NCBI GenBank assembly: GCA_029260075.1
Contig: JAJDDY010000023.1
Span: forward strand, 248,001-312,000
Direction of reading: 5' to 3'
Length of the DNA stretch: 64,000 nucleotides
Origin: Phycisphaerae bacterium
GTDB lineage: Bacteria > Planctomycetota > Phycisphaerae > UBA1845
The translations under genes were made by a program, and so were the position numbers. Under the pieces are notes generated by a model. That model did not search any database, was not told the DNA's origin, and saw nothing but the letters and a program-made list of their open reading frames with translations. Positions within the stretch are counted from its first letter, which is position 1. Each line of letters begins with the position of its first letter. Positions 3,828 to 47,745 of this stretch are shown here, one piece after another.

Positions 3828-3851
3828 GGTGCGTGAATCCCTTCTCGCACC
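3828..3851 (+). repeat. GTGCG-type covarying hairpin repeat
   Basis: The unit is GGTGCG, T, GAA, TCCC, TTC, T, CGCACC. Two stem blocks are separated by a T-T mismatch and closed by a 4-base loop. This is the first of about a dozen copies of the family in the window. Confidence 0.85.
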
Positions 3852-4037: not shown

Positions 4038-4487
4038 TCATATCAAACGTTCCAATACAGCGTCAACACGCAATCCAACGATCGCTACTTCGTTCGCATT
4101 GACCGCAACGCCTAGTTGGGCTTCCAGCCCGGCGAGTAGCGTTTGCCGAAACCGGTCCGTGTCAGCAAGTGACTCGGCGATGACCTCAGGTTCTCGCCCG
4201 TTCACACGACACACCAACCACCGATTGATCACACCGTCATCCTGCTCGAACCCGGCCAGTTGAATCGCGTGGGCGGCTTGATCGAACGTCGGGGCGAACG
4301 ACCGGCGAAGGTCGTCAAGATTCAGGTCGGCCACCGCGAAATTGACCGGCGTGACGCTAGAGAACACAGTGGTGCGGCTCGGCATACCAGAAGGATCTGG
4401 AGCGGAGTCGCGTCGAAAGCTAGGCGGTTCAGACTGCACCGGTTCAGACGAGTCTCCCGATTGATGACGACCGGTCCGCGGGCTCAC
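4038..4487 (-). CDS. Hypothetical protein, 149 aa
   Basis: No family recognised. The N-terminal 40 residues are polar and rich in Ser and Pro. The remainder looks like a folded alpha/beta domain with regular hydrophobic spacing (for example INRWLVCRVNGREPEVIAES). It follows the kinase-like/deoxyribosyltransferase-like gene by 35 bases on the same strand, so the two are likely co-transcribed. The start used is GTG 4487. Curiously, an ATG at 4519, three bases after the upstream stop, opens an 11-codon frame (MSKRRKQSRAA) that ends in TGA at 4486-4484, overlapping this GTG in a different frame. The true start could therefore involve a frameshift or a sequence error. Confidence 0.55.
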   Translation of the reverse strand: MSPRTGRHQSGDSSEPVQSEPPSFRRDSAPDPSGMPSRTTVFSSVTPVNFAVADLNLDDLRRSFAPTFDQAAHAIQLAGFEQDDGVINRWLVCRVNGREPEVIAESLADTDRFRQTLLAGLEAQLGVAVNANEVAIVGLRVDAVLERLI

Positions 4488-4522: not shown

Positions 4523-5737
4523 TCAGCCGTTTTCCCCCGCTGCCTCGGGGAGCGGCAATTGGTAATCGCCAATCATCTCGCGTTCTTGGAAGTACGCGAA
4601 CAACTCATCGAGCGATCGAAAGACGGCCGTGGCTGTTTCGGTGACGAAGGGTGACGGGCTGCTCTGCGGGCGCCAGACGACGAAGACTTCCTTGGTGCAT
4701 TCGTAGGCATGCTGCAACTCGCGCTCGACGCCGGAGGACAGCCCCGGTCGACCGTCGGGCAGTTCGGGGATGTAGCTGACGATCATGTCGGATTGTTCAA
4801 TCAGCTTGAAGTCGCGCGCATAAATCTGAGCGTCAATGTCCGGCGCTACGCGGGCAATTTCTCCCACGCTCAACACGACGGACCGATCGTCAAGGCTTAT
4901 GCGAATTTCCTCGTCACCGCGTTTCGTGGCTTCGCCGGCTTCGAACAGTAAACGCTTTTCGTCAAGGTCCGCCGGGTCGAACGCGATAAAATGTTCGGCC
5001 AGCACATCACGAAAGCGTTCGATCTCCATGAGCGTGTCGGGTAGGTCGATGACGTGGGTCATGGGGAACGACGGATAGACGCGCTTGCGGTGCGGCTCGA
5101 ACATGAGCCGGTAGAGCGACTTCGCGTTGATCCTCGGGTTGCTTCGCGAGAGGATGAGCGCCCGTCCATACCCCGCCACAGCCTCCGCCATGGCTTCGGT
5201 CACCACAATTTCTTCCTCGCGCCATACGAGAATATCCTTGAGCGTGTGACGCACATCATGGTCGCGGGCCAGGCGAGCGTGAACTGCGTCGACGTTGTCG
5301 ACCAGCGTGATGTACAAGTCCGGATCAAGCTGCACGACCTGGTTGTGGTCGTACGCTTGGAACAAGCCATGCTTCCAACGAAACGTCGCGTGGCTGTTGA
5401 CGATCAAATTCGCATTGGGCGAAGCGGCTTGGAGAATGTCTTTGAAGATGCTTCGTCGAAGGGCGGTGAGGCGCTGGCGGGGGAGGTCGAGAATCCGCCC
5501 AGCCACAATGTCGGGCGCCTCGGCGTACATGCGATCGCCGACGTTGAACAGTTGTACCTCGTGGCCGTTGTCGGCTGCGATCTTAACGACCTCGTCGAGA
5601 AACGGCTTCTTATCAAGACCGACCTGCCCATTGACCAGCACGCGCACGCCGCCGTGGCGATGCGAAGGTGTTGCGTGGAACAGGGACGGGGCTGGTGGTT
5701 GCGTGTCGTCGTTGGTGTCGCTGCGTGAATCGATCAT
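4523..5737 (-). CDS. Fusion of archaeal adenylate kinase-like domain and nucleoside 2-deoxyribosyltransferase-like domain
   Basis: Residues about 28-210 resemble archaeal-type adenylate kinases: a strand and loop VRVLVNGQVGLDKKPF, then FNVGDRMY, a conserved NSHATFRWKHG, and DPDLYITLVDN. The loop does not match a canonical Walker A (no GK[ST]), so phosphotransfer may be lost or altered. Residues about 300-390 resemble nucleoside 2-deoxyribosyltransferases: an IYARDFKLIEQSDMIVSYIP core, then SSGVERELQHAY and KEVFVVW. The combination suggests binding or cleavage of a nucleotide or its N-glycosidic bond. Whether it salvages nucleosides or acts as a regulatory or defence enzyme is not visible. A hypothetical gene follows and a CAP lipoprotein gene precedes it. 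The domain calls come from motif recall only. Confidence 0.6.
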   Translation of the reverse strand: MIDSRSDTNDDTQPPAPSLFHATPSHRHGGVRVLVNGQVGLDKKPFLDEVVKIAADNGHEVQLFNVGDRMYAEAPDIVAGRILDLPRQRLTALRRSIFKDILQAASPNANLIVNSHATFRWKHGLFQAYDHNQVVQLDPDLYITLVDNVDAVHARLARDHDVRHTLKDILVWREEEIVVTEAMAEAVAGYGRALILSRSNPRINAKSLYRLMFEPHRKRVYPSFPMTHVIDLPDTLMEIERFRDVLAEHFIAFDPADLDEKRLLFEAGEATKRGDEEIRISLDDRSVVLSVGEIARVAPDIDAQIYARDFKLIEQSDMIVSYIPELPDGRPGLSSGVERELQHAYECTKEVFVVWRPQSSPSPFVTETATAVFRSLDELFAYFQEREMIGDYQLPLPEAAGENG

Positions 5738-5755: not shown

Positions 5756-6301
5756 TTAGAAATCCAGCGGATCGCCGAACTCAAGCACCCAGTAGATCGA
5801 ATACTCGCCGCCGCCGCGCACGCCGATACCGACATCGCGCCACATCGGGTCGAGAATAATGTTGCGATGGGACGGGCTCTCCATCCAAACTTGCACGACC
5901 TCTTCCGGCGTTTGCTGACCGGCGGCAAGGTTTTCGCCGATCGCATAGCCGCGATACTTACCCTCGATCGCCCGATCACGCGGCTGAGCTCCGGTGGCGG
6001 GGTCACGATGATCGAAGAATTGCCCCTCGACCATCCGACAGGCGTAGCCTTCAGCGATTGATTTCAAGAAGCGGTTAGCCTTGACCGGCCTTAGCGAACG
6101 CTTGGAACGCTGCTGATTGATCAGAACGAGCACCGCGTCGCCAAGCTCCTTCTCTCCGTCGGGCGTAACGCACGGGGCGGGTGGCAACTCGACCAGACGT
6201 GCAGCCTCGGTTCCAGGGTCGTCCGACGGCGAGTAGCAGCCGGATCCGAGACCTAGCACCAGAATGGCGTACACGACTATGGTTGGCGAAATACGAAACA
6301 A
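5756..6301 (-). CDS. CAP/SCP-domain lipoprotein
   Basis: The N-terminus reads as a lipoprotein signal: a hydrophobic stretch ending LGLGSGC, with Cys as the lipidated residue. The mature part is a CAP (cysteine-rich secretory/PR-1) domain of the bacterial YkwD type: a LINQQRSKRSLRPV helix, FFDHRDP, GENLAAG, VVQVWMESPSHRNIILDPMWRDVGIGV and a final WVLEFG. The fold's usual His and Glu positions are present. The TTG at 6301 is chosen because a GGAAGAGGAA tract lies six bases upstream and this start gives a clean signal peptide; longer in-frame extensions run into repeat DNA. It probably acts at the cell surface. The precise substrate of bacterial CAP proteins is unknown. Confidence 0.82.
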   Translation of the reverse strand: MFRISPTIVVYAILVLGLGSGCYSPSDDPGTEAARLVELPPAPCVTPDGEKELGDAVLVLINQQRSKRSLRPVKANRFLKSIAEGYACRMVEGQFFDHRDPATGAQPRDRAIEGKYRGYAIGENLAAGQQTPEEVVQVWMESPSHRNIILDPMWRDVGIGVRGGGEYSIYWVLEFGDPLDF

Positions 6302-6819
6302 ATGTGCTTCCTCTTCCTTCAGGACGCGGACCGACACGACCACTGAGACAATTGTACGCTCCGTAAGCCGGGCAAACAAGGTCCAACATGACGGACTTGC
6401 CGGTTTCGACCTACCTGACGGCCCGGAATCCGTGATGTTATTGAACAAACCGCGCATACGCTCCGGCGTTACCCCGGATATCGTCATTTCACGCGAGCCG
6501 GTTGACGGAATCCTGTCCGTACCGGTCACGACGACGCACGACTCGCCGAGGAGTCGGTCCAAAAATCTTGGCACCGGTTCCAGCCGGTGATCCGTTGCTA
6601 TGCTGTGCCGCTCGTGCTGCTGTGCCGTGAATCCTTTCTCGGCACCCGCTCGTGCGTGAATCCCTTCTCGCGCACACCGCTCGTGCGTGAATCCTTTCTC
6701 GCACGCACACCTGAGCGCTTGCCCAAGCGACCCTCTTACCATGTAATGTCGCGCGCCGTTGATGATATCCTGACACGTGGGCAGCGCCCACGCAGCCACG
6801 CATCCCAGGAGCCGTTGGA
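6302..6819. other. Divergent intergenic region dense in hairpin repeats
   Basis: The promoter regions of the CAP lipoprotein (leftward) and mqnD (rightward) lie here. The right half holds one CACCGG-type hairpin and three GTGCG/GTGCCG-type hairpins. No gene is evident; the open frames that cross it are repeat-derived. Confidence 0.6.
6569..6704 (+). repeat. Cluster of one CACCGG hairpin and three GTGC-type hairpins
   Basis: A CACCGG repeat with a one-base-shorter arm is at 6569-6593. A GTGCCG-stem hairpin lies at 6622-6645, a GTGCG-stem hairpin with an extra CG in its right arm at 6652-6675, and a GTGCG-stem hairpin at 6683-6704. All share the inner GAA-TCCY-TTC block. Stem bases differ but stay paired. 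Confidence 0.88.
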
Positions 6820-7665
6820 ATGAGCCAACCGAGACAACTAACGCTGGGTCATAGCCCCGACCCCGATGACGCCTTCATGTTCTACGCCCTCGCCAAGAAC
6901 AAGATCGACACGCGCGGGTGGGCGTTCGAACACGTGCTGCAAGATATTCAAACGCTCAACGACCGGGCGCTGCGTGGCGAGTTGGACATCACCGCCATCA
7001 GCATCCACGCCTATCCGTTCGTGGCCGAGCGGTATGCGTTGACCGCGTGCGGAAGCAGCATGGGCGACGGCTATGGTCCGCTCGTCGTGGCCCGCGAGGA
7101 GATGACCATCGACGACCTGCGCGGCAAAACCATCGCCGTGCCGGGAGAGATGACCACGGCATTCCTCGCACTGAATCTGATACTCGGGCGCCGAGCATTC
7201 GAGCACAAGGTCGTCATGTTCGACGAAATTCTTACCCACGTGGCCGAAAGTCGCGCCGACGCCGGACTGATCATCCACGAAGGACAACTGACCTATCGCG
7301 ATCACGGCCTGTCGTCGATCATCGACCTCGGCGACTGGTGGAAGCAGACGACGGATCTACCGTTGCCCTTAGGCGGCAACTGCATCCGCCGCGACTTGGG
7401 CCCCGAAGCGATGGTCGAGGTGACGGCAATATTGAAAGAGAGCATCGAGTACAGCCTCGCCCACCGCAGCGACGCCGTCGAGTACGCACTTCAATACGCA
7501 AGAGACATGGGCCACGACCTGGCCGACCGGTTCGTGGGCATGTACGTCAACAAATGGACCGTCGACTACGGCGTCGTAGGACGCCGTGCGGTGCGAGAGC
7601 TACTCAAGCGCGGGCACGAAATCGGCATGATGCCGGAAGTCAAAGAGATCGACTTCATCGGATAG
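6820..7665 (+). CDS. mqnD: 1,4-dihydroxy-6-naphthoate synthase (menaquinone futalosine pathway)
   Basis: MqnD converts cyclic dehypoxanthine futalosine to 1,4-dihydroxy-6-naphthoate in the chorismate-to-menaquinone futalosine route. The 281-residue protein shows the periplasmic-binding-protein-like fold of the family. It has an N-terminal SPDPDDAFMFYAL motif (SPCPND in many members), DITAISIHAYPFVAERY, GDGYGPLVV, IAVPGEMTTAFLALNL and ADAGLIIHEGQ, the last containing the catalytic-type His. Family length is about 275-285 residues. An AGGAG at 6807-6811 is spaced eight bases from the ATG. The other mqn genes are not in the window. Its presence implies menaquinone respiration without the classical men pathway. 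Confidence 0.92.
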   Translation: MSQPRQLTLGHSPDPDDAFMFYALAKNKIDTRGWAFEHVLQDIQTLNDRALRGELDITAISIHAYPFVAERYALTACGSSMGDGYGPLVVAREEMTIDDLRGKTIAVPGEMTTAFLALNLILGRRAFEHKVVMFDEILTHVAESRADAGLIIHEGQLTYRDHGLSSIIDLGDWWKQTTDLPLPLGGNCIRRDLGPEAMVEVTAILKESIEYSLAHRSDAVEYALQYARDMGHDLADRFVGMYVNKWTVDYGVVGRRAVRELLKRGHEIGMMPEVKEIDFIG

Positions 7666-7704: not shown

Positions 7705-7880
7705 GTGTGGCACCGGCTTCCAGCCGGTGATCCGTTGCTGTGCTGTGTCGTGAATCCTTTCTCGACACATGGACGGAGGTAAGCTGTGCCGTGAATCCTT
7801 TCTCGGCACGTGGATGAAGGTGCGAGAAGGGATTCACGCACCAGCTGACGCACCAGCAGGGTCTAGGGATTCACGCACCA
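7705..7880 (+). repeat. Cluster of hairpin repeats, both orientations, downstream of mqnD
   Basis: A CACCGGCT hairpin lies at 7705-7733. Then come a GTGTCG-stem hairpin at 7745-7768, a GTGCCG-stem hairpin at 7786-7809, an inverted GGTGCG-stem copy at 7819-7842 and a half copy at about 7863-7880. This cluster supplies the clearest compensatory pair change, CG/CG to TC/GA in the stem. The whole 262-base gap between mqnD and the next gene is repeat-derived. Confidence 0.9.
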
Positions 7881-9344: not shown

Positions 9345-9752
9345 GTGTGGCACCGGCTTCCAGTCGCTGGTGCGTGAATCCTTTCTCGCACCTTTGTTCG
9401 CGAATACCCGTTCCCATGCATCGTCGTAGCCGCCGGACGCAGGATGGGAATCCTGCATGAGCGGAGTGACGAAATAGGAATCTCGTCACAGCGGTTTCTT
9501 CAACAGGTGTGGCACCGGCTTCCAGCCGGTGGTCCCATAACGATTTCTTCCCTATAACGTTGCGAATCCCATCAGCACCGACGTTTGCTGGTGCGTGAAT
9601 CCTTTCTCGCACCTTCGTTCGCGAATACGCCTTCCCATGAATCGCCGAAGCCGCCGGATGCAGGATGGGAATCCTGCATGAGCGGAGTGACGAGATAGGA
9701 ATCTCGTCACAGCGGCCCGTCAATGGATCACCGGCTGGAAGCCGGTGCCACA
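9345..9752. repeat. Repeat island with a 129-base direct duplication
   Basis: Copies at 9366-9494 and 9587-9715 are each 129 bases and nearly identical. Each starts with a GGTGCG-type hairpin (9369-9392 and 9590-9613) and ends in a segment reading GGATGGGAATCCTGCATGAG and onwards to TCGTCACAGCGG. CACCGGCT hairpins sit before (9345-9368, degenerate), between (9507-9535) and after, inverted (9725-9752). This fills the gap between aspS and the zinc dehydrogenase, which are on the same strand. No gene is present. Confidence 0.88.
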
Positions 9753-47291: not shown

Positions 47292-47745
47292 TGCAACGCT
47301 CAAGTTGGAAGTGAGGGAGCCGAAACGGTCGTGCCAGCGATGACGTAGGTGCGAGAAGGGATTCACGCACCAGCGGCTTAGGGGGGAGGTAGCCCGTTGC
47401 AGGGGTGGCTATGTGCTGTGCCGTGAATCCTTTCTCGGCACTTCGGGTTGACGTGCAAGAAGGGATTCACGCACCAGCGGGAAGGGATTCGCGCACGATC
47501 AGCTTGTTGAACAGGTGTGGCACCGGCTTCCAGCCGGCGATCCATTAGCGATTTCCGCCTCTTGCGGGCCACTCAACCCTCTGGTTTCACGCACAGCCTC
47601 GCCCGTTCCACGGCGGATTCATTCACCCGCACGATGCAGGCTGGCCGATATCTCGGTACGGGTGTTCGCGCGCGGCGAGACGTCGCCGGACGTTCGCCGC
47701 GACCGGGCCGAGTTTGTTGGAACCGCCAATCGAGGTGACGCATCG
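47292..47745. other. Repeat-rich intergenic region after valS
   Basis: The gap holds an inverted GTGCG hairpin (47348-47371), a GTGCCG hairpin (47418-47441), an inverted copy with one G-T wobble (47453-47474), a half copy near 47481-47496 and a CACCGGCT hairpin (47515-47543). No gene is supported. Confidence 0.6.
47348..47543. repeat. Cluster of GTGC-type and CACCGGCT hairpin repeats
   Basis: This is the fourth large cluster. As in the clusters at 6.6, 7.7 and 9.4 kb, a CACCGGCT unit borders several GTGC-type hairpins. The two families therefore travel together. Confidence 0.88.

Follow-up and report, generated by a model that had tools for sequence, protein, structure and literature searches.

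What does a protein do that carries a half resembling archaeal adenylate kinases and a half resembling nucleoside 2-deoxyribosyltransferases? The question is raised by a gene in the window, the whole stretch of 64,000 nucleotides of Phycisphaerae DNA analysed here, for which an earlier note, made from the letters alone, had offered three guesses: a nucleotide sensor coupled to a glycosidase, a salvage enzyme or a defence effector.

A conserved two-domain family

The open reading frame and its unusual phosphate loop are present as that note described them, and the gene divides as follows when a predicted model is matched to known structures:

4523..5737, minus strand: two-domain gene (putative pseudo-adenylate-kinase joined to a putative DNPH1-like N-glycosidase), ATG to stop, 404 amino acids
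5099..5653, minus strand: N-terminal domain, residues 29-213, predicted archaeal adenylate-kinase fold (structure match of the predicted model)
5606..5629, minus strand: degenerate P-loop GQVGLDKK, residues 37-44, with K43 at the Walker Lys position and K44 at the Ser/Thr position
4565..5092, minus strand: C-terminal domain, residues 216-391, predicted nucleoside 2-deoxyribosyltransferase/DNPH1 fold (structure match of the predicted model)

We take the frame to be a real gene because relatives with the same domain layout exist and because 217 of the 248 genomes sampled from the window's class have a match (among the more complete genomes, 176 of 194), nearly always in single copy, as in the window's own genome (a 4.92-Mb assembly, 97% complete). 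In G726 (contigs C25 and C73) and G808 (contigs C9 and C28) the gene has a second full-length match, a sign of either paralogues or contamination. One scan of genome contigs gave 30 loci with relatives, one of them partly masked; 28 complete planctomycete or bacterial copies have the same architecture and are 51-76% identical to the window protein, and one Thermoprotei archaeon encodes a protein that is 33% identical over almost the full length. When 294 genomes from the phylum are searched with a profile of the fusion protein built from 24 sequences (A1), the gene turns up in 22, of which 21 belong to the window's own class and one to another.

The family extends well into the archaea. Among 300 sampled Thermoproteota genomes, 87 have a match, and 44 of these matches are two-domain proteins when sorted by match extent and reading-frame length; the rest consist largely of plain adenylate kinases, ~200 amino acids long, or of proteins with the C-terminal half only. 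In an unrooted tree of 57 sequences, a single branch (support 100/99) splits the 18 bacterial rows from the 39 archaeal ones. Because the fusion is broad in archaea, transfer from archaea to bacteria is the simpler guess. One divergent archaeal member (L119, G425:C2) matches DUF1512 below the cut-off (E 3.5e-4, 20.8 of 25 bits), and this sequence alone hints that DUF1512 is perhaps a distant relative of the fusion family.

The fusion is a conserved two-domain family, which makes it more than a singleton, and it is undescribed within the literature searched, the open-licence PMC set, where we found no paper describing it. Neither half fits cleanly into a named family. The note had treated the halves as different in kind, and in keeping with this no search put both into a single known family.

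A degenerate kinase half and a glycosidase-like half

The AlphaFold2 model of the fusion protein (alignment A1; pLDDT 84.3, pTM 0.84) bears out the proposed kinship of the N-terminal half with archaeal adenylate kinases of the AdkA type (6ln3, 6pjw, 1nks). With VIA-align, residues 29-213 match 6pjw_A at Z 17.9 (rmsd 2.5, 180 aligned) and 6ln3 at Z 17.1, and the profile searches agree, retrieving 6ln3 among PDB archaeal adenylate kinases at 6.3e-10, with the profile of the N-terminal half reaching 1.6e-12. Foldseek against the PDB returned kinases only among the best 50 matches listed; we took the phosphoglycerate kinases in that listing, with TM about 0.2, to be spurious. Pfam AAA_17 scores just over its cut-off (1.4e-6, 29.1 bits against 27), in a match that starts past the P-loop, whereas the NCBIfam model of archaeal adenylate kinase (PRK04040, NF003122) gives 25.4 bits, below its cut-off of 155.

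It is in the catalytic motifs that the family parts company with these kinases. We aligned 13 family members with 10 canonical Thermoproteota adenylate kinases, and the Walker A motif GxxGxGK[ST]T and the Asp of DTH occur together in 10/10 of the canonical kinases (as GxPGxGKTT and DTH) versus 0/13 of the family members. The latter have K, R or M after GxxGxx, with Ser/Thr at the following position in 0/13 and with the Asp of DTH replaced by N, S, G or F in 13/13, so the description of the P-loop as non-canonical holds for every aligned member. The loop varies by clade (GQVGxxKK, GISGSGR, GHSGLDKH, GTTGVNM). In a larger set of distinct rows (115 planctomycete and 43 archaeal, 158 in all), the residue next to the Walker Lys is T in two planctomycete rows, among the 112 of 115 listed, and neither S nor T in archaeal rows, among the 39 of 43 listed, and position 114 is Asp in 0/158. 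Other residues of this half are kept, such as W172 in all 158 rows, R173 in 157 of them and K43, at the Walker Lys position, in 114/115 planctomycete rows. With the Walker-A Ser/Thr and the Asp of DTH gone, the N-terminal half is probably a pseudokinase derived from an adenylate kinase. That the domain has lost catalytic residues yet keeps its fold and motifs suggests that it binds a ligand or regulates, and the planctomycete proteins, with their retained Walker Lys, might still bind ATP.

The fold of the C-terminal half likewise agrees with the deoxyribosyltransferase-like character claimed for it. Its best VIA-align match is the 2'-deoxyribosyltransferase 7o62_C (Z 14.2, rmsd 2.2, 128 aligned), tied to within about 1 with human DNPH1 (9i57_A, Z 13.4, rmsd 2.6, 129 aligned; 9i9q, 13.1; 8rqd, 12.3). 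By sequence the similarity is faint, the profile of this half reaching BcmB and DNPH1 at E 0.013-0.03 only. The Pfam model of the transferases (Nuc_deoxyrib_tr, PF05014) matches the window protein at E 0.12 with 13 bits, and the C-terminal half alone with 14.8, against a cut-off of 28.8; nine other full-length members gave 16.8-23.4 bits in the six listed and no match at E<=0.01 in three, and weak matches occur in 21 of 31 C-terminal halves at E<=0.1, the best at 4.2e-7. Since the window protein misses the cut-offs of both PF05014 and NF003122, we claim membership of neither family.

The residues that would make an active site can be placed by comparison with DNPH1, whose catalytic triad is Tyr24, Asp80 and Glu104, with Ser98 and Ser128' as phosphate ligands, according to PMC10603095 and PMC10483697:

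5075..5077, minus strand: Y221 codon, putative DNPH1 Tyr24 position (YxSxP motif aligned by eye; the HMMER alignments begin downstream)
4811..4813, minus strand: D309 codon, putative DNPH1 Asp80 position, the general acid (HMMER alignment of the C-half profile)
4736..4738, minus strand: S334 codon, putative DNPH1 Ser98 position, 5'-phosphate (HMMER alignment of the C-half profile)
4718..4720, minus strand: E340 codon, putative DNPH1 Glu104 position, the nucleophile (HMMER alignment of the C-half profile)
4652..4654, minus strand: S362 codon, proposed counterpart of DNPH1 Ser128', phosphate contact from the neighbouring subunit (correspondence by eye)

HMMER pairs S334/G336 with DNPH1 Ser98/Gly100, and the DNPH1 numbering of the counterparts of D309 and E340 was matched through their 24-residue spacing. 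Nine positions are invariant in 31 diverse C-terminal halves (Y221, S223, P225, P255, D309, G336, E340, P363 and F364, in window numbering), of which P363 is replaced in 45 of the 115 planctomycete rows of the larger set. D309 and E340 are each present in 115/115 planctomycete and 43/43 archaeal rows and Y221 in 114/115 and 43/43, such that the triad is complete in 157 of 158 rows and lacks Y221 in the remaining one. The putative phosphate-site positions are nearly as constant: S334 is kept in 115/115 planctomycete and 36/43 archaeal rows, with His in seven archaeal ones, and S362 in 115/115 and 38/43, with Asn in five archaeal ones.

Judged by these residues, the glycosidase half looks intact, and on the predicted fold it is most likely an enzyme of the NDT superfamily that is DNPH1-like in action. 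The likeness to DNPH1/Rcl covers the fold of residues 216-391 and the Tyr/Asp/Glu set, and may extend to the two phosphate positions, of which that of Ser128' is proposed; unlike DNPH1, the fusion, ~21% identical over the aligned part, has this domain sitting behind a kinase-like domain of 200 residues.

Genes beside the fusion and the link to deoC

The neighbouring gene that bears on function is deoC, with assignments checked by scores over the TIGR00126 cut-off. In a sister order of the class, the one to which genome G157 belongs, the fusion gene occurs in 55 of the 78 genomes searched; deoC lies directly downstream on the same strand, at a gap of up to 204 bases, in 26 of these 55, six more have it on that strand no further than 1.3 kb away, and it was not seen near the fusion gene in the other 23, four of which have the gene near a contig end. 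Because the linkage falls mostly within one order, the 26 cases do not count as 26 independent events. In the window's own order, genome G603 has deoC directly downstream of the fusion gene, 5 bases apart (L245); deoC is absent beside the window's own copy and from the 1.5-kb flanks of 29 loci of this order (L143-L171). No deoC was found around the archaeal fusion genes, so the role in archaea is extrapolated.

Across the class, 191 of the 217 genomes that have the fusion gene also show deoC, versus 15 of the 31 that lack it (Fisher p 1.5e-6, a value that ignores kinship and assembly gaps); in the other 26 of the 217 no deoC was seen. The window's genome carries deoC on another contig. The same genome yields no pyrimidine-nucleoside phosphorylase at E<=1e-3, and its single PNP-type phosphorylase scores over the cut-off as an MTA phosphorylase, which makes it plausible that deoxyribose 5-phosphate comes from elsewhere. 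According to the literature, this compound is both the substrate of DeoC and the product of DNPH1, and the deoC linkage therefore points to DNPH1-like chemistry.

The genes that flank the fusion in the window itself have a narrower distribution:

4038..4487, minus strand: companion reading frame (P0002), 149 amino acids, GTG start, with homologues just downstream of the fusion gene in eight relatives
5756..6799, minus strand: upstream reading frame, separated by 18 bases from the fusion start codon, with a CAP (SCP/YkwD-like) domain

The companion, which the earlier note had listed as a further gene of unclear identity, is a real gene because its homologues adjoin the fusion gene in eight relatives. 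It has no match in Pfam, NCBIfam, PADLOC or PHROGs. A model built from nine sequences (pLDDT 85.4, pTM 0.69) matches 5l9w_B (Z 12.7), 9h03_A (11.9) and 6yra_A (11.2), with the next unrelated rows at 6.9, and the matched region is a domain that spans residues ~490-635 in the chains of acetophenone/acetone carboxylase, N-methylhydantoinase and caprolactamase. By its predicted fold, the companion would be a small, stand-alone, lineage-specific relative of the acetone-carboxylase/hydantoinase large-chain domain, and it is not part of the general fusion system.

The true start of the CAP-domain gene probably lies further in. This gene is conserved upstream in 15 planctomycete loci and absent from that place elsewhere, and we judged its tie to the fusion to be positional, not functional. 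A gene of a menaquinone biosynthesis family at 6820-7665 (PF02621, 1.1e-77) stays beside the fusion gene in conserved order, but in close relatives only, and for this reason we set a link to menaquinone aside. A dispersed short repeat, GTGAATCCYTTCTCG, has 13 matches in the window (up to 2 mismatches, both strands) versus 0.24 expected, at 3833, 6627-6701, 7750-7837, 9374-9609 and 47352-47492; these are mostly intergenic around the fusion gene, and the repeat yields recurring peptide scraps, REGIHA and EKGFTH among them, in spurious reading frames. In archaea, the neighbourhoods vary by clade, with SRP19 and proteasome alpha around L031 and proA/proB and others elsewhere, as read from sequence. 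We found no functional link to neighbours that is common to bacteria and archaea.

A proposed function weighed against its rivals

We consider it fairly probable that the fusion is a DNPH1/Rcl-like 2'-deoxynucleoside 5'-monophosphate N-glycosidase that feeds DeoC and carries a degenerate adenylate-kinase module for sensing. In such an enzyme, D309 would protonate the leaving base while E340 would attack C1' to give a covalent deoxyribosyl-phosphate intermediate, from which water would free 2-deoxyribose 5-phosphate for cleavage by DeoC (deoxyribose-phosphate aldolase). The N-terminal half, having lost its phosphotransfer residues, most likely either helps to recognise the nucleotide that is cut or acts as a nucleotide sensor that gates the glycosidase. 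We infer the activity itself, its specificity for deoxy- and monophosphate substrates, its physiological role (dNMP catabolism or clean-up) and what the kinase half does.

The same catalytic residues could also serve a transferase, since they are common to hydrolases and transferases (PMC10483697, PMC12884076), and the closest fold match of the C-terminal half, narrowly ahead of DNPH1, is a transferase. Such an enzyme would exchange bases either on a dNMP, the reaction that phage DmtZ carries out with dAMP, or on a deoxynucleoside, in the manner of classical NDT. We find this unlikely: plain nucleoside substrates sit badly with the conserved S334 and S362, which stand at the putative positions of the phosphate serines of DNPH1 and set the fusion family apart from the nucleoside 2'-deoxyribosyltransferases, and the deoC linkage suits hydrolysis, with deoxyribose 5-phosphate set free. 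DmtZ is described, in PMC12884076, as an NDT-superfamily enzyme of Z-DNA phages that acts on dNMP, and some of these phages fuse NDT to dUTPase. The fusion resembles them in joining an NDT-superfamily domain to another domain of nucleotide metabolism, whereas the partner there is a dUTPase and here an adenylate kinase, and the fusion family has no match in PHROGs. A substrate of another kind, either a ribonucleotide (as in the CMP N-glycosidases MilB and BcmB) or an NAD-like compound, perhaps in defence or signalling, is brought to mind by BcmB (4jen), which tops the PDB sequence matches of the C-half profile (E 0.013; fold Z 10.7), and by matches to TIR/SLOG-type Pfam models that are weak and at chance level. 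BcmB differs from the fusion in being a single-domain ribonucleotide enzyme. The deoC linkage points to a deoxyribose product, and we regard this reading as quite improbable. Its defence variant also clashes with a class-wide core distribution (217 of 248 genomes, nearly always single-copy), which is not patchy and is unlike that of most defence genes, with the lack of any PADLOC match at E<=1 and with the lack of relatives in the viral contigs scanned; we have rejected membership of an anti-phage system on these grounds. Among the three guesses of the earlier note, the defence effector thus finds no support, and salvage or catabolism by a glycosidase with a nucleotide-binding module fits best.

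Two further readings turn on the N-terminal half. If it had kept a nucleotide kinase activity, or even stood in for adenylate kinase in some archaea, the protein would be bifunctional, as the retention of K43 in planctomycetes might suggest. Among the 44 Thermoproteota genomes with the fusion, a canonical adenylate kinase (NF003122, E<1e-40) is found in only 2 of 24 of the GISGSGR group, versus 16/16 of the GHSGLDKH and GTTGVNM groups and 2 of the 4 remaining. That group, however, has Arg in place of the Walker Lys, the Ser/Thr and DTH Asp are gone from every aligned member, and NF003122 exceeds its cut-off in 187 of the 300 Thermoproteota, many genomes without the fusion lacking such a match too, in a count that covers the archaeal type of the enzyme. 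Bifunctionality therefore seems to us a poor prospect. It is more doubtful still, to the point of being very hard to credit, that the entire protein is a non-catalytic nucleotide-binding regulator; the degenerate kinase half and the long conserved motifs of the family, THATFRWKHGLF and LKDILVWREEE, for neither of which a known catalytic motif can be named, would suit a regulator, but a glycosidase triad complete in all rows but one, across bacteria and archaea, is not expected of a pseudoenzyme.

Returning to the N-glycosidase that we prefer, we tentatively extend it to a wider picture, which we hold to be less likely than not: an undescribed family of dNMP N-glycosidases, catabolic or pool-cleaning, that arose in archaea and passed once to the planctomycete class, with a retired adenylate kinase as its sensor or gate, and that together with DeoC would lead dNMP into central metabolism without nucleoside phosphorylase or phosphopentomutase. 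The best-known enzymes of this activity are those of mammals, those encoded in antibiotic gene clusters and, since recently, those of phages. The spread of the family through one bacterial class and the Thermoproteota lay beyond the view of the first reading. If the proposal is true, a core gene of that class and of many Thermoproteota would represent a new prokaryotic branch of deoxynucleotide catabolism or pool hygiene, and its adenylate-kinase half would add a new example of a metabolic kinase that became a regulatory domain.
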